A stretch of DNA of 59,414 bases from Myxococcales bacterium (GTDB taxonomy: Bacteria; Myxococcota_A; Polyangia; Polyangiales; Polyangiaceae), in the NCBI GenBank assembly GCA_020430845.1, contig JAGQJA010000102.1, positions 1,061 to 60,474 on the forward strand. The letters are read 5' to 3'. Below are positions 16,585-29,475 of this stretch, piece after piece (within the stretch, counting starts at the first letter, position 1; the number at the start of each line of letters is the position of its first letter). The notes under the pieces were generated by a model that was not told where the DNA came from, ran no database searches, and saw only the letters and a list, made by a program, of their open reading frames with translations. Made by a program: the position numbers and the translations under genes.

Positions 16585-19500
16585 TCAGCCGCCCAGGGAC
16601 CGCAACGCCGCCGACGCCTCGCGGTGGTGCGGGTTCGTCGACAGCAGCTCGTTGAAGTCCGCCGAGGCCTCCGCCGCACGACCGAGCTGCGCGTAGAGCT
16701 TGCCTCGATAGAGGAGCGCGCGCTCGTTCGAGGGATCGTCCTCGAGCACCGTCGTCATCGTGAGCACCGCCGCGTCGGCGCGCACCTTGCCGAGCTGCAC
16801 GCGCACCCAGGCGAGCAGCGTGGAGTAGTCCGACTGCGTCGGGTCCGCCTTGTACGCCTTGAGCGCGAGGGTCTCGGCGCCCTGCAGATCGCCTCGCTGG
16901 AGCGCGGCCTCGGCCATACGAAAGCTCGTCATCGCCTGGAGCGCCGCCTCGGCGTCGGCCATGTCGTCCGAGAGCTCGCCGCCCGACAGGTCGACGTCGA
17001 TCGAGATCTCGGAGCTCTCGGCGGCCGGAGGGGGCTGTTGCGCGGGGATGTGCGAGCGTGAGGAGTGTGGCGGCGGCGGCGCGGCACGAGGCGCGGGAGG
17101 TGAAGCGGCGGGCGGACGCGCGGCGGGCGCAGGCGCGGGTCGGCGAGCGCCGGGCAGCGGCCGACGTCCCGGGATCACCGGAGCAGCGCGCGCGACGGTC
17201 TTCGCGGTGTCGGAGACGTCGTCGTCGGTCTCTTGCGGCGGCACGTGCGGCGTCGCAAGGCGGCGGCTGGGCGCCGGCTGCGAGGGTTGCAGGCCGTGGA
17301 TCGTCGCCTTCTTGGCCGTCTGCACGACCGGCCTCGCTCCACCCTGAGGAGGCGCAGCGGGGCGGATGCGAGGGGCGGGGCGCCCCGCGACGGCCGCAGG
17401 ACGAATCTGCGGGGCAGAGCCCTGGCGCACGGGAGCTGGTCCCGCGATCGGAGCCCGCTGAGGCGGCGGCGCGGCGCGGGGCGTCTGTCCGTGCGGCGTG
17501 TTCACGCGACCGCCGGCGGACGCAGCGACCGCGGGACGCTGAGGGCTGCTCGGCGCGTTGCTCGTCGGCAGGGCGCCCGACGCGGCCGGCACGCGCCCCG
17601 ACGACGACGGCGCGAGCGCAGCGGCGCGCCACTGCTGCGAGTGACGCGGCGCCATCGGACCGCGCTTCTGACCTTTGAACGCGAACTGCCGCGTGACCGC
17701 GAGCACGTAGATGACCGAGCTCACCGCCTCTTCGTCGGCGAGCTGTCGCTTGAAGAGCTGCGGGAGGCTGACGGACTCGGCCTGGACGACGGACACGACC
17801 TCTCGCTCGTGTGGCAGCAGCGCGAGCGCGGTGAGGTCTGCGTCCTCGTGGAGCACCAGCGGGTGCTTGCCGATGCGGTTGAGCGTCGCGCGGACTCGCG
17901 CGCGATCCATCCAGCTGCGGACGCTCGCGAGGATGGGGTTGAGCGGGCTCGAGGCCACAGGCTCGGCGCTACCCCAGCCGTCGAGGAGATCGACGTCGCG
18001 GAAGTACGAGTACGTGATCTCGGGCGCGAGGTTGGCGAGGCTCGCGACCTTTGCGAGCAGCTGCGCCTCGAGCGCCCACGCCAGGCCTTCGCGCGTGATG
18101 ATGTCGTGCCCCGCGAGGTACTCACCGAAGAGGAGCTCGAGCGACTGCGCGTCTGCGACGAGCTGCGGGATCTGCGACGACTCGAGGTAGCCAGCGTGCA
18201 CGAGCGTCTCGCCGAGCAGGGCCACGGGCTCGTGCAGGCGCACCTTCATCGGGACGCCGCGCACGAAGAAGATGGTGTCCTCGCTCCCGTCCTCGAGGTG
18301 GAAGACCACGCTGCCGGTCAGCGTGTGGTCGAGCATGTAGACGAGCACGTGCGGGAGCGGCGTGGCCGCGAGCGTCCCCGTCGCGGTCGCCTGCCCCGAC
18401 GCGGCCGGTCGCTGCGTCTTGCCCGCGTCTTCTGCGCTCCCGCTGCTCCGCGGAGGCGGCGGCCGGAGCGAGTCGTTGATCATGCGGCCCATCGCCTCGG
18501 CGACGGCCGACGGGCTCGAGCCGAGTGAAGGCAGCGAGGAGCTCGACACGCCCGAGTTCTGCTCCGAAGACCCGGAGATGCCCGAGCCCGACGGCGGCGC
18601 GGGCTCGTTCGCGTCGCCCCAGGCAGCGTACTGCTCGGAGTACTGCTCCGAGACGCTGCGCGGCGGCGCCGTGATCGGGTTGGGCGCGAGCGGCGAGAGC
18701 TGCTGGGGCTGCGCGTCGGGGGCCGGCGGCGGATCGCTGTCGTCGGCGTCGTAGCCGCCCTCGACCTCGCTCTCGGCGAGGCCCTTCTTCCAGCCGTCGA
18801 CGCTCAGCACGCGCATGACGGAGTGCTGCGTGTCGGTCGCCAGGTCGAGGTCGTACGGCTGCGCGAGCGGCGCCCCGCGCGCGTCGCAGATCACGCGCAC
18901 GCCAGGCCGGCGTCCCACGCCGTGCGCGCCTCGGGTCACCTCGGCCCACTCGCCCGTGTTGAGCTGAACCGTGGTGCCCAGGGGGACGAGACCGAGCGCC
19001 GACACGAGGAGGCGGAGCACGGCGCGGTCTTGCGGATCCGTGAGCTCCTGCGCCAGCGTCGCGACGCCGTGGTCGGGCGTGGGCGGCAAGAGACCGGGCT
19101 CGGGGGTGAGCAAGTCGTTGTACCGACGGGCGACGTGGATGATGCGCGCGTGGAGCGTGGCCTCACGGCCGCCTTGGTAGAGGGGGCCGAGCCAGGTCTG
19201 ACGGCGTAGCCACAGCGACTCGAAGGTGAGCACCGTGCGCGTGATCGACGGCTCGTTGACGCGCCCGAGCGCCGTCAGGACGGCCGCGGCGCCGGCCGCG
19301 AGGCGATCCTCTTGGTCTTCGGAGAGCGAGACCGCCGCGGCCATGCCGGGCATCGAGGGACCGCTCGCCGCCATCAAGGCGAGCGCGCGTGGACGCGCGA
19401 CGTCGAACATCATCGCGGCCATGGCGATCTGCGCGAGCGTGCCGCGGTCGTCGGTCGTCTCGCGCGCCATGGCGACCGCGATGACCGCCGAGTTGATCGC

Positions 19501-20205
19501 GCGCCCCGCTTCGTCGAAGTTCGCGTTGCGCACGTCGGTCACGCCGAGGAACGAGACCGTGGAGCCCTCGGAGAGGTCGACGAGGCTCTGCGCGATGCGC
19601 TTGATGCGGCGCGGGAGGATGTACTTGCTGGCGTGCAGGTCCTCGAAGAACCGCCGCATGATGACGACGGCGTTGGCGTACATGCGCACGATGCGCTGCT
19701 CGTCGGTGAGCGTCTCGAGCTCGAGGCCGCGCAGGCGCGCCGCTTCGTTGACGGGGCGCAGGCGCACCTTGTTCGTCGAGCGGAACGCGCCGCGACCCGT
19801 GCGGAAGCCAGCCGAGATCTGCTCGGCGACGCCGAAGAGCTCGTCGCGCGTGATGTCACGCGAGATCGACAGCTCGGAGCCGCCGAGGCGCTCGAAGATC
19901 TCACCGAGCTCCGACGCCATCTCGTAGGTGCCACGCGAGCCCTTGAGCAGCTGGCCGGCGACGAAGACCGCCTTGTGAGCGAACAGGACGTTGACGTTGG
20001 CGCCGGCGCGCAAGCAGTAGTCGCCGATGATCTGGTGCGTCTGCTCGAGCTGGCGCAAGAACGCCTGGTTCTGCAGGTCGTGCACCTGCGCGAGCTTGGC
20101 GAGGCGGTAGATCGCGACGACGACACCCGCGCCGAGATCGCGCGCGTGCTCGCGGCGGACGAGCTCGCCCGAGTCGTTCGTGACGATGTCGAGCCGCATC
20201 GTCAT
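16585..20205 (-). CDS. Degenerate HD-GYP / DUF4388 / TPR protein
   Basis: A 1206-residue multidomain cytoplasmic protein. Residues about 20-450 resemble an HD-GYP-type phosphohydrolase: MAAMMFDVARPR (265-) aligns with the usual LLHDIGK segment, and ARIIHVARRYNDLL with the later RIVAVADVYDAL segment. The His of HD and the HHE..GYP residues are missing, so c-di-GMP hydrolysis is unlikely. After a Pro/Ser-rich linker a DUF4388 domain follows (about 635-770, VLVYMLDHTLTGSVVF onward). A long Pro/Ala linker (about 860-1080) leads to a C-terminal TPR region (AEAALQRGDLQGAETLALKA onward). The ATG at 20205 overlaps the upstream kinase stop (ATGA). It probably works as a scaffold or receiver for that kinase. 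Confidence 0.85.
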   Translation of the reverse strand: MTMRLDIVTNDSGELVRREHARDLGAGVVVAIYRLAKLAQVHDLQNQAFLRQLEQTHQIIGDYCLRAGANVNVLFAHKAVFVAGQLLKGSRGTYEMASELGEIFERLGGSELSISRDITRDELFGVAEQISAGFRTGRGAFRSTNKVRLRPVNEAARLRGLELETLTDEQRIVRMYANAVVIMRRFFEDLHASKYILPRRIKRIAQSLVDLSEGSTVSFLGVTDVRNANFDEAGRAINSAVIAVAMARETTDDRGTLAQIAMAAMMFDVARPRALALMAASGPSMPGMAAAVSLSEDQEDRLAAGAAAVLTALGRVNEPSITRTVLTFESLWLRRQTWLGPLYQGGREATLHARIIHVARRYNDLLTPEPGLLPPTPDHGVATLAQELTDPQDRAVLRLLVSALGLVPLGTTVQLNTGEWAEVTRGAHGVGRRPGVRVICDARGAPLAQPYDLDLATDTQHSVMRVLSVDGWKKGLAESEVEGGYDADDSDPPPAPDAQPQQLSPLAPNPITAPPRSVSEQYSEQYAAWGDANEPAPPSGSGISGSSEQNSGVSSSSLPSLGSSPSAVAEAMGRMINDSLRPPPPRSSGSAEDAGKTQRPAASGQATATGTLAATPLPHVLVYMLDHTLTGSVVFHLEDGSEDTIFFVRGVPMKVRLHEPVALLGETLVHAGYLESSQIPQLVADAQSLELLFGEYLAGHDIITREGLAWALEAQLLAKVASLANLAPEITYSYFRDVDLLDGWGSAEPVASSPLNPILASVRSWMDRARVRATLNRIGKHPLVLHEDADLTALALLPHEREVVSVVQAESVSLPQLFKRQLADEEAVSSVIYVLAVTRQFAFKGQKRGPMAPRHSQQWRAAALAPSSSGRVPAASGALPTSNAPSSPQRPAVAASAGGRVNTPHGQTPRAAPPPQRAPIAGPAPVRQGSAPQIRPAAVAGRPAPRIRPAAPPQGGARPVVQTAKKATIHGLQPSQPAPSRRLATPHVPPQETDDDVSDTAKTVARAAPVIPGRRPLPGARRPAPAPAARPPAASPPAPRAAPPPPHSSRSHIPAQQPPPAAESSEISIDVDLSGGELSDDMADAEAALQAMTSFRMAEAALQRGDLQGAETLALKAYKADPTQSDYSTLLAWVRVQLGKVRADAAVLTMTTVLEDDPSNERALLYRGKLYAQLGRAAEASADFNELLSTNPHHREASAALRSLGG

Positions 20206-23180
20206 GGGCTGACCCCTGGCGCCTGCGCGGCGCGCTCGGCGATGCGCTTCGCGGCGTGCGCGGCGGCCGTCCGGGTCTCGTCGGACACGCCCCACCTCAC
20301 CTGCGACAGCTCGGAGAGCCCTTGCGCGATCTGACGCGAGCGAGAGAACTCACCGAGCAGCTCCGCCGCCGCGGCGCGGGTCGTCTCGCGCTCCTCGCTC
20401 ATGAGGACGCCGCCCTTCTTGGCGATGTCGAGGGCCATGCCCTCGCCGCGATCGGGCGAGAGCACGATGAGCGCGCGGAGCAGCTCGCGGCGCTCGTCGC
20501 TGCCGAGATCGTTGAAGGACTTGGCCGATGCCAGCCTCGAGACCGTCGGCCAGGCCGAGATCATGCGGTAGCGGACGGCCACGCGGAGCGCCGCCATGCG
20601 CACGATGGCCATGGGCCCCTCGAGCTGCGACGCCACCTCTTGCTGCGCCTGCTCCTTGGACTGCGCGACGAGCACGCGCGCCTCGATGCGAACGTTGGGG
20701 TCCTCGATCTGGGTGAGCTGACCCAGTGCCTGGCGCGCCGTGGGCGACTGCGAGCGGGCGAGCAGGTTGAGCAGGCCGGAGATCGCGTCGGGGTCTGCCC
20801 CCGCCATGACGGGGACGAGCTCGCTCTCGCGGGTGACGATGTTGCGCTCCACGTACTGGAGGAGCAGCGCGCGCGCCGCGGGGCCGAGCCTCGTGCGGAG
20901 CGTGTTGAGCACGGGCCCGAGCTCGTTGGGCGAGAGCGACGCGAACACCGACCGCACCGACTCGACCTGACTGTCGTCGTCCTGCAACCTGCGCAGGACG
21001 AGCTCGAGGGTCTCGCCGCCGAAGAGCGAGTTGGTCAGGGCGGCGACGAGCTTGGTGACGTGGTCGGGGTTCTGCACGCGCGTGCGCAGCGCCGTGCACA
21101 TCGCGTCGTTGATCTGTACGACGACGTCGAGGCGCCCGGCCACGACGAGGTCTGCCGCAGACTTTCGCAGCGACGCAAGGACGAGCGCCGCGTCGCGGTT
21201 GGCGGCGGCGTCGAGGTAGCCCTCCACGAGGGCGTCGACGTAGCGCGTCGCCCACAGCTCGCGCGTCAACGAGAGCTGGGCGCCGAGGGCCTGCTTCATC
21301 GCGTCGTCGAGCGCAAAGGGCGAGCGCTCCTTCTTCTTTCCGAGCGCCTCGTCGTCGGTCGACAAGGCCATCGCGCGGGCTTCGAGCGCCGCCGACTGGT
21401 TCTCGATGGCCGCTTGCGCCGCCAGGTTCTCGATCTCGTCGGCCTCACCGAAGAACTGCTCGCGCTCGGCGGCGTCACCCTCGGCGAACGCGTCGACACA
21501 TTCCCAGGTCACGTGCGGCAGGTTCTTCTCCCACAGCGCGGCGGCGAGGTCGTCCTCGGGCGGGAGGTCGCGCCCCGGGTCGAGCGAGAGGATGGCCACC
21601 AGATCGCGCAGCTCGTCGAGCCCGAGGCCCGCGCCGACGCGCAGCAACCGCACGCCGCAGGCGAAGAGGTTGTACGGGATGGCGTCGTACGGCGCGCCCG
21701 GCTCCCAGACCGAGTGCCCGAGGGTCATGAACGAATACGGGCGGATGGTGAAGTCGACGATCGTCGGCTGCTGACGGAGCGCCTCGGCCCACGCGTCGTA
21801 CGCGGTCTTGAGCGTGCGCTCCGTCGCGGGGTGCTGCCAACCGAACTGGCGCGCGCTCGGCAAGATGCGATCGAAGTGCTTCATCAGGTCGCGCAGCGTC
21901 TGCACGCGCGGATCGCTCTCGGGCACCTCGGGCGCGGCGGGCGCGGCCGGTGGTTGTTGGGGCGCGGGCGCGGGCGCGGGCGCGACGCCCGGTTGCGGGG
22001 GCGCGAAGCCGAAGAGCGGATCGAACGCGGGCGCTGCGGCCGAGACGGGCGGCGCGGCCGCCGGGGGACGCCCGATCGACGGTGGCGCGGGCATGTGCGG
22101 GACGTGCACGCCCTGGGGCAGCTGCTGTTGGTGCGCGGCCGCGTGGGCGGGCTCGGCGGGCTGCGCCACGGGCGCGGGAGGCGGGGCCGGCGCGGTCACG
22201 GGGACGGCGGGCGCCGCGGGCGCCGCGGGCGCAGACACGACGTGATGCTCGAGGGGCGCGACGAGCACCTCGTTGGGGCGCGGCGGCGGCCTGTTGGGCA
22301 GCGGCGTGACGTTGTTCGCCGGCATCTGGTCGAGCAACGCACGCTGCATGTCGCGCGCGTCCGAGAAGCGGTTGCGGCGATCCCAGGCCAGGGACTTGTC
22401 GACGAGCTTGATGAGATCGATGGGCAGCTGCGGCGCGATACGCGCCACCGACGGCACCGGCTTGGTGGCCGCCATGACGAGCGCCTCTTGCTCGGTGCGG
22501 CCGTTGTTGATGCGGTGCCCCGTGATGAGCGCGTGCATCATGGCGCCCACCGAGAACAGGTCGGCGCGGCCGTCGAGCTGATCGACGAGGCCCATCGCCT
22601 GCTCGGGAGACATGTACGCCGGCGTGCCGAGCGCGGTGCCGGTGGCCGTGCGCTCCGACGTGGCGTCTCGCATCTGCGCGACGCCGAAGTCGAGCACCTT
22701 GATCTCGCCGTCGTTCGTGATGAACACGTTCGCCGGCTTGAGGTCGCGGTGGATGACGTTGATCGCGTGACACGAGACGAGGCAGTCGACCACGCGCTCG
22801 CAGATCTGCAGCACACGCCCCACGGGCATCGTGCGCCCCGCCTTCTTCCAGGCGTCGCGCACGGTCTCGCCCTCGAGGAGCTCCATGATGAGGAACGGCT
22901 CGCCCTGCTCGGTGACGTCGTCGTCGACGACCTGCACGGTGCCGCTGTGATTGACCTTGTTGGAGACGTACGCCTCACGGAGGAAGCGCTCGCAGATCGT
23001 CTTCTCTCGCGCGAAGTCCGCGTGCAGGATCTTGAGCGCCGCGCGCGTGCCGTTGCGGTGTTGGCCTGCATACACGGCGGCCATGCCGCCGACGCCGAGC
23101 AACGACTCGACCTTCCACTTGCCCTTGATGACGGCTCCGACCCTCGCTTGGGGCCCTTGATCTTTGGAAGCCTTCGACAT
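20202..23180 (-). CDS. Ser/Thr protein kinase with C-terminal HEAT-like repeats
   Basis: A 992-residue protein. The kinase domain comes first (LLGVGGMAAVYAG, ALKILHA, HRDLKPANVF, DFGVAQM, YMSPEQA) and appears catalytically complete. A Pro/Ala-rich linker (about 300-430) follows. The C-terminal half is helical with HEAT-like repeats (TARQALGQLTQIEDPNVRIEA is one unit), a protein-binding platform. No transmembrane segment is seen. The start MSKASKD at 23180 is preceded by CGAGGCGG; longer versions of the frame add no kinase sequence. The downstream pseudo-HD-GYP gene overlaps by 4 bp, so the two are made together and probably form a complex. Confidence 0.9.
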   Translation of the reverse strand: MSKASKDQGPQARVGAVIKGKWKVESLLGVGGMAAVYAGQHRNGTRAALKILHADFAREKTICERFLREAYVSNKVNHSGTVQVVDDDVTEQGEPFLIMELLEGETVRDAWKKAGRTMPVGRVLQICERVVDCLVSCHAINVIHRDLKPANVFITNDGEIKVLDFGVAQMRDATSERTATGTALGTPAYMSPEQAMGLVDQLDGRADLFSVGAMMHALITGHRINNGRTEQEALVMAATKPVPSVARIAPQLPIDLIKLVDKSLAWDRRNRFSDARDMQRALLDQMPANNVTPLPNRPPPRPNEVLVAPLEHHVVSAPAAPAAPAVPVTAPAPPPAPVAQPAEPAHAAAHQQQLPQGVHVPHMPAPPSIGRPPAAAPPVSAAAPAFDPLFGFAPPQPGVAPAPAPAPQQPPAAPAAPEVPESDPRVQTLRDLMKHFDRILPSARQFGWQHPATERTLKTAYDAWAEALRQQPTIVDFTIRPYSFMTLGHSVWEPGAPYDAIPYNLFACGVRLLRVGAGLGLDELRDLVAILSLDPGRDLPPEDDLAAALWEKNLPHVTWECVDAFAEGDAAEREQFFGEADEIENLAAQAAIENQSAALEARAMALSTDDEALGKKKERSPFALDDAMKQALGAQLSLTRELWATRYVDALVEGYLDAAANRDAALVLASLRKSAADLVVAGRLDVVVQINDAMCTALRTRVQNPDHVTKLVAALTNSLFGGETLELVLRRLQDDDSQVESVRSVFASLSPNELGPVLNTLRTRLGPAARALLLQYVERNIVTRESELVPVMAGADPDAISGLLNLLARSQSPTARQALGQLTQIEDPNVRIEARVLVAQSKEQAQQEVASQLEGPMAIVRMAALRVAVRYRMISAWPTVSRLASAKSFNDLGSDERRELLRALIVLSPDRGEGMALDIAKKGGVLMSEERETTRAAAAELLGEFSRSRQIAQGLSELSQVRWGVSDETRTAAAHAAKRIAERAAQAPGVSP

Positions 23181-23336
23181 CCGCCTCGGGAAGCACGGCG
23201 TGCGGGCGCGCCGTGAGTCAGGTAAACCCGGGTGCTCCGGGCAATATGGAAAGGATATCGAGTGGAGCGGCGAGAGGACACTCCATTGCGCTCGCACCAC
23301 ATCCGGAGATGTAGGCTCCTCTGCGACACGCTCGAT

Positions 23337-23363: not shown

Positions 23364-25877
23364 CTAAATCGTCTCGGCAGGCGAGCGCGACACCACGAAG
23401 GCGGCGACGGCACCCGCGGCGCTGACGAGCGGAACCAGCACGGCCGGGCCCACGCCGAAGCCGACGACGAGCGCCGGGCCCACGGTGGACGCTGCACCGA
23501 CCACCAGCGCCAGGCGCGCGCGGTCTCGCGCCGAGCGCGCGAGCGTGAGCGCGATCGACGCGTCGCGGATGTCGTCGGACGCGAGCTGCACGCCCCACTC
23601 CCCCACCCCTCCGGCCGCGCGCATCGCCACCGCGACGTTGGCCGAGCCGAGCGCCGCCTCGTCTGCGGGCGGGTGCCCGATCGCGGCGACGAGCCTGCCG
23701 CCGTCGGAGAGGGCGCGGACCTCGTTGCCTCGCTCGGCCGCCGGGATCTCCGGACGAATGTGCTCGATGTCGAGCGCCTGCGCGGTGGCCTCACACGTCT
23801 GCCGCGAGTCGCCACTCAGGAGCACCGGCTCGATGTGTGCATCATGCATCTTTTGGACGGCCGCACGCGCGCCTCTCCGCACGCCGTCTTGCAGCGCCAT
23901 GAGGCCCGCGAGCTTTCCGCCAACCGCGAGCAGCAGCACGGTCTTGCCGCGTGCCTCGAGCGAGGCGATCTTGGACTCGGCGGCGGCGATGCTCACGCCC
24001 TCGCGCAGCAGGAAGGCCCGGCTGCCGAGGGCCATGCGCTTGCCCGACGGCGTCAGCGCGGTGACGCCCAGGCCCGGGTAGCTCGTCGCGCTCCTCACCG
24101 CGTCGGGCTCGACGCGACGCGCGCGCGCCGACCGATGGATCGCGGCCGCGATGGGGTGCGACGACGCCGTCTCGGCGCCCGCGGAGAGCGAGAGCATCTC
24201 GAGCTCGCCGATCGTGCCGAACGTCTCCATGCCGACGACCTCGGGCTCGCCGACGAGCACCGTGCCGCGCGAGCAGAGCACCGCGACGTCGACGCGGCCC
24301 GCGTCCTCGAGCGACGCCGCGCCACGATAGACGATGCCGCGGCCGAGCGCGGAGACGCGGGCGTGCGCGTGCACCGACGCGGCAGCGCCGACGGCGGCGG
24401 CCACACCCGCGGCGAACGCACCGGCGGAGACGGACGCGAGGACGTCGAGCCAGCGCGCGCCCGTCGCCCAGACGGCCACGCCCACCAGGACGGCCGCGAT
24501 AGGGGCCCCACGCTCGACGACGCGACGCGCGAGCTCGATCATGGGCGCCGCTTCGACGGCCGCGCCGGTCACCGACGCGGCCCACGCACGATCGTCTCCG
24601 GCGCTCGTGGTCGCGACGCGCAGCGTCCCAGAGACGACGCGAGCCCCCGCGACGATCGGGTGACCTTCGGCGAGGTGCGCAGAGGCGCGCGCGTCGAGCC
24701 ACGGCGTCACGTCGGCGGTGCCCGCGGCGACCACGCCGTCGACGGGACACGTCTCGCCCGCAGCGACGACGACCTGCTCGCCTGGCTTGAGCTCGCTCGC
24801 GCGCACCTCGATCGTGGCCTGACCGTCGACGCGGGCAGCGCTCACGTCGAGCGCGGCGCGCACGCGGGCGCGACCGGTCTCGACGGCACGCGACGCTCGG
24901 CCCAGGAGGAGCAAGCACACGAGCGTCGCCGCGGCGGTCACGCTCGCGTGCACCTCGTAGCGCGCAGCCGGCACGCGCGCGACGTGGGCCGCGACCGCGG
25001 CGGCCCCCGCGAGCACGGCAGGCGCGTACACCAACGCGCGGGTCACGCGACCGAGCATCAGCGCGCGCGACGAGGCGCCGTGCGCGACCACACAGGCGAC
25101 AGCCGCGAGCGACACGGCCAGGCGCGCCGAAGCCGCCGCCGGCCCCGCGAGCCCGACGACCGCGCCGAGGGCACCCGCGGAGATCCCCGCGATGGCGATC
25201 CCCGCGCGGACGTCGCGCGGAGCGCGAGCGACCTCTTCGACGTCGGCGGCGTCGTCCAGGCGCGCGCGCTCGTCGGCAGGCGCCGGCTCCGCGTCGCGCT
25301 CGGCGGCGACCGCGTCTCGTTCGACGACGACGGCCTCGTCTGCCGTCCTCTGCTCCTCGGCCGCGCGCGCGGCCTCGGCGTCGGCGCGCGCTCGGGAGCG
25401 CAGCGTGGCCGGAGGAGGCTCGACCGCGGGGAGCGCGGCCGCCGCGTCGAAGCTCGGGAAGTAGGGAGCGTCTTCGGGGTCGTCGTGGTCGTCGGCGTGC
25501 GCATCCTCGTCGCGCACATCCGCGTCGCGCGCATCCGCGTCGGCGCGCGCGGCGTCTGCCGGCGCGTGCTCGGTCGCCTCCGCACGCGCGTCGTCGGTCG
25601 AGCGACGACCCGAGGCGAGCGGCGGCTCGTCGGTGATGGAGAGCGCGCGCGTCGTCGACACGATGGGAGGCGCGGACGTCTCCGCGTCGAGCGCGGCGCG
25701 CCGCGAGGTCGCGTCGACGAAGGCGGCCTTGCACTCGGCGCCGCAGAAGTACTGGAAGCCGCCGTCGAGGATCGCCACGTGGCCCGCGCGCAGCACGTCC
25801 ACCTCCCCGCCGCATCCGGGGCAGGGGGTCGAGGACGACGGCGGCATCGAGGCCGTGCGCGAGCGAGCGGGGCCCAT
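23364..25877 (-). CDS. P1B-type ATPase-like pseudoenzyme with TRASH/YHS-like cysteine domain
   Basis: An 837-residue membrane protein with the order of a heavy-metal P1B ATPase but without its catalytic residues. Residues 19-49 form a Cys4 TRASH/YHS-like metal site (CPGC and CGAEC). Residues 94-137 are Asp/His/Ala-rich. Membrane helices start near 225. The actuator is recognisable (GEQVVVAAGETCPVDGVV), but TGES is DARAS (395-399). The CPC helix has no Cys or Pro (about 484-502). The phosphorylation loop DKTGT is CSRGT (535-539). GDGIND is GHPPAD (734-739). The SxHP motif (573-575) is kept, as is LSGDSRQTC. It cannot form the phosphoaspartate, so a metal-sensing or regulatory role is more likely than pumping. 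Confidence 0.85.
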   Translation of the reverse strand: MGPARSRTASMPPSSSTPCPGCGGEVDVLRAGHVAILDGGFQYFCGAECKAAFVDATSRRAALDAETSAPPIVSTTRALSITDEPPLASGRRSTDDARAEATEHAPADAARADADARDADVRDEDAHADDHDDPEDAPYFPSFDAAAALPAVEPPPATLRSRARADAEAARAAEEQRTADEAVVVERDAVAAERDAEPAPADERARLDDAADVEEVARAPRDVRAGIAIAGISAGALGAVVGLAGPAAASARLAVSLAAVACVVAHGASSRALMLGRVTRALVYAPAVLAGAAAVAAHVARVPAARYEVHASVTAAATLVCLLLLGRASRAVETGRARVRAALDVSAARVDGQATIEVRASELKPGEQVVVAAGETCPVDGVVAAGTADVTPWLDARASAHLAEGHPIVAGARVVSGTLRVATTSAGDDRAWAASVTGAAVEAAPMIELARRVVERGAPIAAVLVGVAVWATGARWLDVLASVSAGAFAAGVAAAVGAAASVHAHARVSALGRGIVYRGAASLEDAGRVDVAVLCSRGTVLVGEPEVVGMETFGTIGELEMLSLSAGAETASSHPIAAAIHRSARARRVEPDAVRSATSYPGLGVTALTPSGKRMALGSRAFLLREGVSIAAAESKIASLEARGKTVLLLAVGGKLAGLMALQDGVRRGARAAVQKMHDAHIEPVLLSGDSRQTCEATAQALDIEHIRPEIPAAERGNEVRALSDGGRLVAAIGHPPADEAALGSANVAVAMRAAGGVGEWGVQLASDDIRDASIALTLARSARDRARLALVVGAASTVGPALVVGFGVGPAVLVPLVSAAGAVAAFVVSRSPAETI

Positions 25878-26008: not shown

Positions 26009-27304
26009 TCAGGGCGGCGGGACGTCGGCGAGCACCTTGCGCACGGCCGCGACGCCCTCGCTCAGCTCGGCCTCGGAGACGACGAGCGGCGGCGAGAAAC
26101 GGAGCACGCGCTCGCCCGCGGCGGTGAGGAGCACGCCGTTCTCGGCCAGCTTGGGGAGGAGATCGCGGACGACAAGGCCCTTCTTGAGCACGAGGCCGCG
26201 CAGGAGCCCCTCTCCGCGCTCGCCCTCGCACACGTTCGGCAGGGCCTCGGCGACGGCGCGCAGCTCGGCCGACAGGTGCTCGCCCTTCTTCTTGGCGGCG
26301 GCGACGAGGCCCTCTTCGTCGATGATGCGAAGCACCGCGCGCGCCGCGGCGCTCGCGAGCGGATTTCCGCCGAACGTCGTGCCGTGCGTGCCCGGAGGCA
26401 GCGCGCCGGCGAGCGCCTCGGTGCAGAGCATGGCCCCCACGGGGAAGCCTCCACCGAGCCCCTTGGCCACCGCGATGGCGTCGGGTCGCATGCCCGACTC
26501 GTGGAAGCCGAACCACCGGCCGAGCCGCCCCACGCCGGTCTGCACCTCGTCGAGGAGCAGGAGGGCCCCGGCCGCGTCGCACGCCTCACGCAGCGCGAGC
26601 AGAAAGCCCTTCGGCGCCGGGAGCACGCCGCCCTCGCCCTGCACGGGCTCGGCGATCACCGCCGCGACGTCGGGGCCGAGCTCGCGCTTGACCGCGTCGA
26701 TGTCGCCGTAGGCCACGTGGGTGACGCCCGCCACCTCGCCGAAGCCCTCGCGGTACTTGGGCGTGCCGGTGAGCGAAACCGCGCCCATCGTCCGACCGTG
26801 GAACGCGTTGTCGAACGCGATGAAGCGAGTGCGCCCCTTGTCGCCGCGCCCGTAGTGGTGGCGCCGCGCGAGCTTGAAGAGCGCCTCGTTCGCCTCTGCG
26901 CCCGAGTTGCAGAACATCGCCCGGTCGAGCTCGGCGCGCGCGCAGAGCTCGTCGGCGAGCCGGATGTTCTCTTCGTTGTAGAAGTAGTTGGACACGTGCA
27001 TGAGCTTCGCGGCCTGCTCCGTGATCGTGCGCACGAGCTCGGGGTGCCCGTGTCCGACCGAGCACACGGCGACGCCCGCGGCGAGGTCGAGCCAGCGCCG
27101 CCCGTCGACGTCGAAGAGCTCGCAGCCCTGTCCGCGCGCCAGCACCATCGGGGCGGGGCGGTAGTTCGGGTAGAGGCGGCGCGCTGCGGTGTCGAGCAGG
27201 TCCTTTTGGCTCATGTCGGGCGAGACTACCACGCGGCTGGGGCCGCGCGAGCGGGTGGCCGACGCGGTCGAGGTGGCGGTCGTGAGGGGGGCGGCGGTGC
27301 TCAT
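26009..27304 (-). CDS. argD: Acetylornithine aminotransferase family (class III, PLP)
   Basis: PLP-dependent class-III aminotransferase, closest by motif to ArgD, which converts N-acetylglutamate semialdehyde to N-acetylornithine in arginine synthesis. Visible features are FCNSGAEANEALFKLARR (phosphate-binding), AFHGRTMGAVSLTG, LLLDEVQTGVGRLG and the PLP-lysine segment AIAVAKGLGGGFPVGA. GTTFGGNPLASAA is also present. The 431-residue version begins at 27304; an ATG at 27214 (MSQKDLL) would remove a low-complexity Thr/Ser/Ala leader and fits the usual 400-residue length better. No other arginine genes are adjacent, so a related role (ornithine or succinylornithine aminotransferase) remains possible. 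Confidence 0.88.
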   Translation of the reverse strand: MSTAAPLTTATSTASATRSRGPSRVVVSPDMSQKDLLDTAARRLYPNYRPAPMVLARGQGCELFDVDGRRWLDLAAGVAVCSVGHGHPELVRTITEQAAKLMHVSNYFYNEENIRLADELCARAELDRAMFCNSGAEANEALFKLARRHHYGRGDKGRTRFIAFDNAFHGRTMGAVSLTGTPKYREGFGEVAGVTHVAYGDIDAVKRELGPDVAAVIAEPVQGEGGVLPAPKGFLLALREACDAAGALLLLDEVQTGVGRLGRWFGFHESGMRPDAIAVAKGLGGGFPVGAMLCTEALAGALPPGTHGTTFGGNPLASAAARAVLRIIDEEGLVAAAKKKGEHLSAELRAVAEALPNVCEGERGEGLLRGLVLKKGLVVRDLLPKLAENGVLLTAAGERVLRFSPPLVVSEAELSEGVAAVRKVLADVPPP

Positions 27305-27394
27305 GGGCGAGAGCGTCGGCCCGGAATGGTCCAGCGAAAAGATCCAGATCTCAGAAACGCCGGGTACCAGCTGGCGGGGCCGGCGCGCCGCTCC

Positions 27395-28204
27395 TCAGGC
27401 GCCCGAAGGGACCGGACCGCCGCGGGCGCGCACGAGGGCGTCGGCGATCTCCGCGAAGCCCGCGCCGCGCTCGCGCGAGGCCACCCAGCGCGGGGGCACC
27501 GACAGGCGGGCGACGGCCCCTCGCACGTTGGCGACGCCGAACGTGGAGCGGAACGCAGAGAAGCACGGCGCGTCGTTGGCGCTGTCCCCCACGTACGCCC
27601 ACCGATGGCGGGCGGCGGTCGCGTCCTCGTGCTGCGTCTCGCAGAGCATGCGCGTCACGCCCGTCGCCTTGTCGTCGACCTCGAACGTGGCGTGCACGTG
27701 GACCGAGCTGCGCGTGGTGCGCGCGCCGTGCCGTTGGATGAGCGCCATGAGCGCGCTCACCTGCGCCTCGGGCACGGTGACGTGCTCGCCGATGTCCCAC
27801 GTGACGTCGGTGAGCCGCCCGGCCACGTCGTCGGCGAGCCCCACCTCGGGCAGCTCGCGGCTCGCGGCGGCGACGATCTCCTTCAGCCGGGCCGAGCGCT
27901 CGCCCCGCTCGGTCGCGGAGGCGCGCTCGGTGACCACGACGCGCCCCGACTCGCGGACGATGGCGACCGCGCCGTTCTCGGCGATCGCCGCGTCGACGGG
28001 CCACGTGCGCGCCACGACGTCGGCCCAGGAGTACGGGCGCCCTGTCACCGCGACGAGCCGCAGGCCCGCGTCCCGCAGCTTCCAGAGCGCCCCGTAGGCG
28101 GCGAGCGTGAGCTGCCCGTGATCCAGCACGGTGTCGTCGAGATCGAACAGGACGCCCACGAGCGCGCGCGCCTCCGCGGCGTCGAGCGACGCGACCGACC
28201 TCAA
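27395..28204 (-). CDS. HAD-family phosphatase (Cof/sucrose-phosphatase-like)
   Basis: Haloacid dehalogenase superfamily hydrolase of about 269 residues. Motif I is VLFDLDDTVLDHG, motif II is in LVAVTGRPYSW, and motif IV is YVGDSANDAPCF. The spacing between motifs I and IV fits the type-II-capped Cof/MPGP/sucrose-phosphatase group, which act on sugar phosphates. The proposed start is a TTG at 28204 that overlaps the stop of the RlmI-like gene (TTGA). A longer frame upstream is only the shadow of that gene. The substrate is unknown. Confidence 0.88.
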   Translation of the reverse strand: MRSVASLDAAEARALVGVLFDLDDTVLDHGQLTLAAYGALWKLRDAGLRLVAVTGRPYSWADVVARTWPVDAAIAENGAVAIVRESGRVVVTERASATERGERSARLKEIVAAASRELPEVGLADDVAGRLTDVTWDIGEHVTVPEAQVSALMALIQRHGARTTRSSVHVHATFEVDDKATGVTRMLCETQHEDATAARHRWAYVGDSANDAPCFSAFRSTFGVANVRGAVARLSVPPRWVASRERGAGFAEIADALVRARGGPVPSGA

Positions 28205-29475
28205 CGCGGCACCACCCAGGCCACGAGCGCCTTGAGGTAGAGGCCCTCGCCGAACGCGGCGCCCACCGGGTGGTCGGGCCCTTGGAACCATCGCTCGAAC
28301 ACACGCGCCTGCACGTTCGCGCGGAGGGCGCCCGTCGCGAGCGCGCGGGTCAGCGCGGTGAGATCGACCGCGGCCGAGCACGAACAGAAGACGACGATGC
28401 CGCCCGGGCGCGTGGCGCGGCAGCCCAGCTCGGCGAGCTTGGTGTACTCGACCAGCGCGGCGTCGCGTGAGCTGCGCTTGGGCGCGAGGCGCGGCGGGTC
28501 GACGATGGTGAGATCGAACGAGCCCTTGGCCGCGCGCATCACGTCGCGCGCGTCGCCGCGTTGGAACGACACACGATCGGACAAGCCGGCGCGCAGCGCG
28601 TGCTCGGCGCCGATCTCGATCGCGGTGGCGCTCTCGTCGACGCTGACGACCTCGGTCGCGCCGCCGCGCGCACACGCCAGGCCGAACGCACCGATGTATG
28701 CATATGCATCGAGCACGCGGCGTCCCTTGGCGAGCTGCGCCACGCGCGCGCGGAGCTCGCGCTGGTCGAAGTAGAAGCCCGTCTTCTGGCCCAGCTCGAG
28801 CGGCACCTCCCACGCCAGCCCGTGCTCGCGGAACGAGAGGACGTTCGTCTTCTCGTCACCACGCACGACGCCCTCGTCGGGCGTGAACGCCTCGATCTTG
28901 GCGACGCGCGCGGGCGTGCGGTCGACGATGGCGCGCGGTGAGAACACCGCCTCGAGCGCGTCGAGGATCATGCGCTCGCGGAGCTTCATGCCCGCGGTCA
29001 AGAACTGCACGCAGAGCACGTCGCCGAAGCGGTCGACGACGAGCCCCGGCACGCCGTCGCCCTCGGCGTGCACGAGGCGGTAGCCGGTCGTGGGTGCACC
29101 GGACGACGCCGCGAGGGCGAGGTCGGGCCGCGCGCCGTGGCCCATCGTGCGACCTCGAATCGCGCTGGGCTCCTCGGACGTCTCACCGAGCCCGAGCTCT
29201 GCGCGCAGGCGCGCGGCGTCCTCGAAGCGTGAACGGAAGAGCTCACCGTCGATCGGCGCCTTCTCGTCGCGGACCAAGATGCGGACGACGATCGCAGAGC
29301 CCGGCGTGTAGAACCCCCGACCGAGGAAGTTGCCGCGCGGATCGCGCACCTCGACCTCGTCGCCACGCGTCGCGCCGCCCTCGATGCGATCGACGGCCTG
29401 CGCATAGACCCAGGGGTGCCCCGCCCAGACGGGCTGCACATGGCCGGGCTTGAGGCGGACGGTGGGGACCGACAC
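28201..29475 (-). CDS. RlmI-type class I SAM-dependent RNA methyltransferase
   Basis: A 424-residue methyltransferase resembling E. coli RlmI, which makes m5C in 23S rRNA. It has an N-terminal PUA-type RNA-binding domain (VRLKPGHVQPVWAGHPWVYAQAV) and an EEHAD-like middle region. The Rossmann SAM motif is RRVLDAYAYIGAFGLACA. The catalytic loop is IVDPPRLAPKR with CSCS further on. The GTG start at 29475 matches the family N-terminus; a GTG at 29526 is also open. Codons for DAYAYI contain an AT-rich palindrome at 28698-28709. The exact methylated base is inferred from family similarity only. Confidence 0.9.
   Translation of the reverse strand: MSVPTVRLKPGHVQPVWAGHPWVYAQAVDRIEGGATRGDEVEVRDPRGNFLGRGFYTPGSAIVVRILVRDEKAPIDGELFRSRFEDAARLRAELGLGETSEEPSAIRGRTMGHGARPDLALAASSGAPTTGYRLVHAEGDGVPGLVVDRFGDVLCVQFLTAGMKLRERMILDALEAVFSPRAIVDRTPARVAKIEAFTPDEGVVRGDEKTNVLSFREHGLAWEVPLELGQKTGFYFDQRELRARVAQLAKGRRVLDAYAYIGAFGLACARGGATEVVSVDESATAIEIGAEHALRAGLSDRVSFQRGDARDVMRAAKGSFDLTIVDPPRLAPKRSSRDAALVEYTKLAELGCRATRPGGIVVFCSCSAAVDLTALTRALATGALRANVQARVFERWFQGPDHPVGAAFGEGLYLKALVAWVVPR
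28698..28709. other. 12-bp perfect AT-rich palindrome inside RlmI-like gene
   Basis: ATGCATATGCAT is its own reverse complement. On the coding strand the 14-mer GATGCATATGCATA is identical to the one in the alcohol dehydrogenase-like gene at 40738-40751. It uses GCA and TAT codons that are rare in this window. Confidence 0.95.

Follow-up and report, generated by a model that had tools for sequence, protein, structure and literature searches.

The window, by which we mean the whole 59,414-nucleotide stretch of DNA that was analysed, encodes an 837-residue protein that we interpret, with a rough probability of 0.6, as an ancient pseudo-ATPase, derived from a P1B heavy-metal pump, that has been retained as a regulator or scaffold anchored in the membrane and connected with arginine synthesis. 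Its descent from a P1B pump and its standing as something other than a pseudogene are firm and, judging from sequence, it is almost certainly a conserved protein that does not pump. The sequence-only reading had named no strand for this open reading frame (ORF); the coding strand is the minus strand (Table 1), and the orthologues suggest that the true start is possibly Met11, 10 codons downstream of the ATG.

Table 1. Position and supporting evidence of the pseudo-P1B-ATPase gene, its parts and its immediate neighbours in the window.
Feature	Position	Strand	Evidence
Pseudo-P1B-ATPase gene	23364..25877	-	837 aa, ATG start; ORF and translation, Pfam, orthologues, AlphaFold
Cys4 TRASH-type treble-clef domain (C19, C22, C45, C49; near-invariant R30)	25701..25835	-	Family Cys counts, Pfam
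Disordered, acidic, low-complexity linker	25284..25700	-	Mostly pLDDT < 50; no column conserved at 90%
Membrane helices MA, MB, M1, M2	24855..25277	-	Helices in model; no residue conserved at 90%
A-domain TGE site, here DARAS	24681..24695	-	GE in 0/119 members vs 26/26 canonical
M4 CPC site, here AVGAAAS	24375..24395	-	Kept in 0/121 members
P-domain DKTGT site, here CSRGT	24261..24275	-	Asp in 0/121; DKTGT in 26/26 canonical
N domain, nucleotide-pocket residues kept (E569, H574, G602, G604, G618) and invariant R620	23889..24215	-	Per-site counts; dN/dS 0.06
P-domain GDGxND site, here GHPPAD	23661..23678	-	Motif kept in 0/121
Class-III aminotransferase, argD-like, directly upstream	26009..27304	-	Aminotran_3 4e-109
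Ser/Thr kinase with HEAT-like repeats, directly downstream	20202..23300	-	Pkinase 7.8e-37; conserved mainly within genus

The motifs were read by alignment to intact P1B pumps, three of them encoded in the same genome. As had been proposed from the sequence, DKTGT is replaced by CSRGT (residues 535–539), TGE by DARAS (395–399), GDGxND by GHPPAD (734–739) and the CPC site by AVGAAAS (495–501), all within a frame that is open from its ATG over the full 837 residues. The HP motif, also said to remain, is indeed present in this protein (574–575), but as a family signature it fails, being found in only 80 of 122 relatives. The protein matches the Pfam profiles E1-E2_ATPase (1.3e-8) and HAD (8.7e-11), both above the curated cut-offs; it also matches the NCBIfam profile ATPase-IB_hvy (2e-53), yet at 182 bits it falls far below the cut-off of 346. 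Its AlphaFold model (pLDDT 86.3, pTM 0.77) is a confident P1B fold apart from the linker, with the copper P1B structure 7r0g as the best fold match (E 4e-33). The P1B fold, with its membrane helices and its A, P and N domains, is present, while the DKTGT, TGE, GDGxND and CPC/M5–M6 ligand residues of a functional pump are missing.

The same holds for the family. Motifs were counted in 121 aligned members, a few of which are two cuts of one gene, and in 26 canonical pumps. While the canonical pumps retain nearly all of the phosphorylated Asp, TGE, CPC and GDGxND, none of the four is kept by any aligned member (0/121; 0/119 for TGE). The sequence-only reading had left it to relatives to show whether the losses are shared; all 121 aligned members share them, and orthologues with intact motifs, whose presence in close relatives it would have taken as the sign of a decaying pseudogene, were found among neither close nor distant relatives. 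Remnants of GDGxND persist, namely the first Gly (118/121) and the last Asp (117/121), and the conserved Lys that is nearly universal in canonical pumps is Arg in 111 of 122 members and Lys in two of 122. The canonical M5/M6 motifs YN and MxxSS were seen in none of the members shown. Residues predicted to serve phosphorylation, dephosphorylation, Mg binding and the metal path are thus absent from every aligned member.

A protein search of 29 genomes (its own and 28 relatives) recovered long orthologues throughout the genus and the family, and in most of the order's other families. Strong profile matches were obtained in approximately 115 of the 145 genomes of the order, a count read off tables; family scores mostly lie between 365 and 980 bits, and canonical pumps form a separate group at no more than about 314 bits. 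Among 284 genomes drawn across the phylum, none outside the order exceeded 310 bits, and no orthologue was found in other orders. Many of the remaining genomes of the order, including those of families f2, f7 and f12, contain divergent copies or fragments at contig ends, and a few may truly be without the gene. A genome-contig scan with P0002 gave only two matches, both to distant canonical P1B genes.

In a tree obtained by a quick search and containing some long branches, the dead sequences fall on one side of a single branch (SH-aLRT 100), so that the tree proposed by the sequence-only reading yields one clade. Pairwise NG86 dN/dS ranged from 0.05 to 0.25 in 24 pairs, single values being rough because of high G+C content and large dS in some pairs; this is purifying selection, not the value near 1 that had been named as the mark of decay. 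By domain, dN/dS is lowest in the P domain (0.034 and 0.039), followed by the N domain (0.060), M3–M4 (0.073) and M5–M6 (0.079), and higher in the TRASH domain (0.115), the A domain (0.119), MA–M2 (0.156) and the linker (0.217), so the domain with the ruined active site is the most constrained part of the protein. Catalytic loss common to orthologues together with purifying selection, by which we recognise a pseudoenzyme, is what the family displays. The proposal that the gene evolved from a pump and is no recent pseudogene is borne out by the fold, the common losses, the single clade and the dN/dS values alike.

Two additions had been described at the N-terminus. The Cys4 TRASH-like domain is real: the first pair, CxxC, is present in 113 of 113 members and the second Cys pair in 109 of 114. 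In Pfam searches of this domain, TRASH_HVO_1752_C matched 23 of 40 members (best 2.7e-7) and DUF7576 matched 36 of 40; the window's own copy has the Cys4 pattern and a profile match, the latter at 20 bits, below the curated cut-off of 27. The "Asp/His-rich stretch", on the other hand, is a linker of low complexity in which His makes up only 2% (family median 1.7%); since it is disordered and unconserved in the family, we discarded it as an Asp/His metal site.

The neighbourhood suggests a link with arginine biosynthesis rather than with metal genes. In most lineages the gene lies close to arginine-biosynthesis genes and is read from their strand. Names of neighbouring genes were assigned by sequence similarity and from what is known of the families concerned. 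Of 42 loci in the window's family, 37 have argD or argF immediately upstream in the same orientation, and the gene is often followed by one for a Fur-type regulator; in the window's genus, the kinase/HEAT gene and a gene for a TPR protein take that place. Conservation of the TPR gene (16585–20295, minus strand), which comes after the kinase/HEAT gene, is likewise found mainly within the genus. In families f5, f9 and f10, argH lies directly downstream in 18 of 21 loci, usually followed by lysA, with open-frame gaps between the gene and argH of -43 to +45 nt; the order gene-argH-lysA was also seen in family f2. Families f6 and f8 and part of f3 show no arginine link. Two genomes from other orders of the same class (L256 and L257) have the argH-lysA pair without the dead pump, suggesting that the pair is older and that the gene was inserted before it. 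The arginine link could be an inherited neighbourhood only. Farther upstream in the window, a gene for a HAD-like hydrolase (27395–28813, minus strand) has argD on one side and an rRNA methyltransferase-like gene on the other; relatives show this hydrolase to be the true gene there, and the shorter listed ORF at 27351–28304, for which there was no Pfam match, is in another frame.

Since the residues of the pump are gone, selection is strong and the gene recurs in arginine clusters, the protein probably senses or organises something rather than transporting metal. We propose that, in the ancestor of the window's order, a P1B pump lost every step of transport and phosphoryl transfer, and that the protein would have been retained as a membrane-anchored regulator or scaffold. 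Its TRASH finger may bind zinc, and its N domain probably binds nucleotide without hydrolysing it; binding of ligand would shift the cytoplasmic head, which in turn would act through a protein partner, plausibly an enzyme or regulator of the arginine pathway from the same cluster. The fuller version of this proposal, that a stand-alone pseudo-P-type-ATPase family became fixed across the order and turned the pump scaffold into a membrane regulator that responds to nucleotide and zinc and controls arginine biosynthesis, is possible, and we put it forward tentatively.

The sequence-only reading had suggested a "metal sensor or partner subunit". Such a partner would associate with an intact P1B pump, as a regulatory or dominant-negative subunit, and tune metal efflux. 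The same genome does encode intact P1B pumps, the Cys4 finger suggests metal, and several loci have a Fur-type regulator downstream; however, in the loci examined no intact pump adjoins the gene, arginine genes being there instead, and P1B pumps are not known to depend on a partner of this kind. We therefore regard such pairing as unlikely.

What is retained within the cytoplasmic and membrane parts bears on whether a regulator linked to arginine synthesis, as we prefer, would respond to a ligand. In the residue numbering of ATP7B, the equivalents of E1064 (102/122), G1099 (120/122), G1101 (119/122) and G1149 (122/122) are kept in the N domain, and R620 of the window's protein is invariant (122/122); the equivalents of H1069 (83/122, 68%) and N1150 are not strictly kept in the family. 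The predicted pocket thus points to nucleotide as much as to metal, and the kept residues, mostly glycines, could be structural rather than nucleotide-binding. In the membrane segments, almost no column is conserved at 90%; unlike most of the N-domain pocket residues, the putative membrane ion path is not retained in the family. In a few relatives (L253:7804-9936, L267:4322-7927, L284 and L275), the A domain is partly or wholly absent from the profile match. A membrane scaffold that has no ligand and merely holds enzymes of the arginine pathway, or others, at the membrane would suit the membrane helices without a conserved path, the constrained P domain and the close spacing of argD, argF or argH. 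Yet the kept pocket residues and the four Cys suggest at least one ligand, and the set of partners shifts, from argD/argF in one group to argH in others; to this scaffold we give slightly less credence than to a pump partner.

That the protein is still an active enzyme but works by a changed chemistry, such as one with a phosphorylated Cys of CSRGT as its intermediate, is very improbable. The position of the phosphorylated Asp is occupied by Cys in 75 of 121 members, and constraint on the P domain is strong, but Ser (19), Leu (13) and, in the rest, others such as Ala, Asn, Val or Pro stand there instead, so a catalytic Cys is unlikely; moreover, hardly any member retains the first Asp of GDGxND, the conserved Lys or the TGE loop. 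A decaying pseudogene, which the loss of every catalytic motif would fit, has next to no chance of being correct and was rejected, since the losses are common to the whole order, frames are open in nearly all listed orthologues and dN/dS is well below 1; a sequencing or frameshift error was likewise ruled out by the open frame and its presence in orthologues.

Pseudokinases and pseudophosphatases are well known. For P-type ATPases, we found in the open-licence full-text literature no clear precedent for an inactive or degenerate form beyond guanylyl cyclase beta of Plasmodium, which carries a P4-ATPase domain termed a degenerated ATPase domain (PMC6592433). That domain resembles the dead family in being a P-type ATPase module that has lost most signature residues (PMC6592433), but it is a eukaryotic domain, of P4 type, joined to a guanylyl cyclase, whereas the protein described here is a stand-alone bacterial P1B derivative with a zinc-finger-like domain. 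With P1B-type heavy-metal ATPases (CopA/ZntA; PDB 7r0g, 3rfu, 4umv), which provide the best fold match and the best PDB profile matches, the family shares the whole fold, the domain order and the GxG pocket of the N domain; unlike them, it lacks the phosphorylated Asp, TGE, GDGxND and CPC as well as a conserved metal path through the membrane, and its gene sits in arginine clusters. Annotation by similarity is likely to mislabel such genes as "heavy metal translocating ATPase". A bacterial family of more than 100 members, with clear constraint and a consistent neighbourhood, makes a non-pumping role of a pump scaffold directly testable.

The finger has relatives of its own in the TRASH/YHS/zf-FCS treble-clef domains (TRASH_HVO_1752_C), with which it has the Cys4 pattern CxxC...CxxxC in common. 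PF04945 (YHS) matches the N-terminal domain in only one of 40 members, so a derivation of the finger from the YHS domain that pumps such as L001 carry is no more than a possibility. Unlike known TRASH domains, the finger of this family is fused to a dead pump and carries its own near-invariant signature, D-x-LRA-x-x-V.
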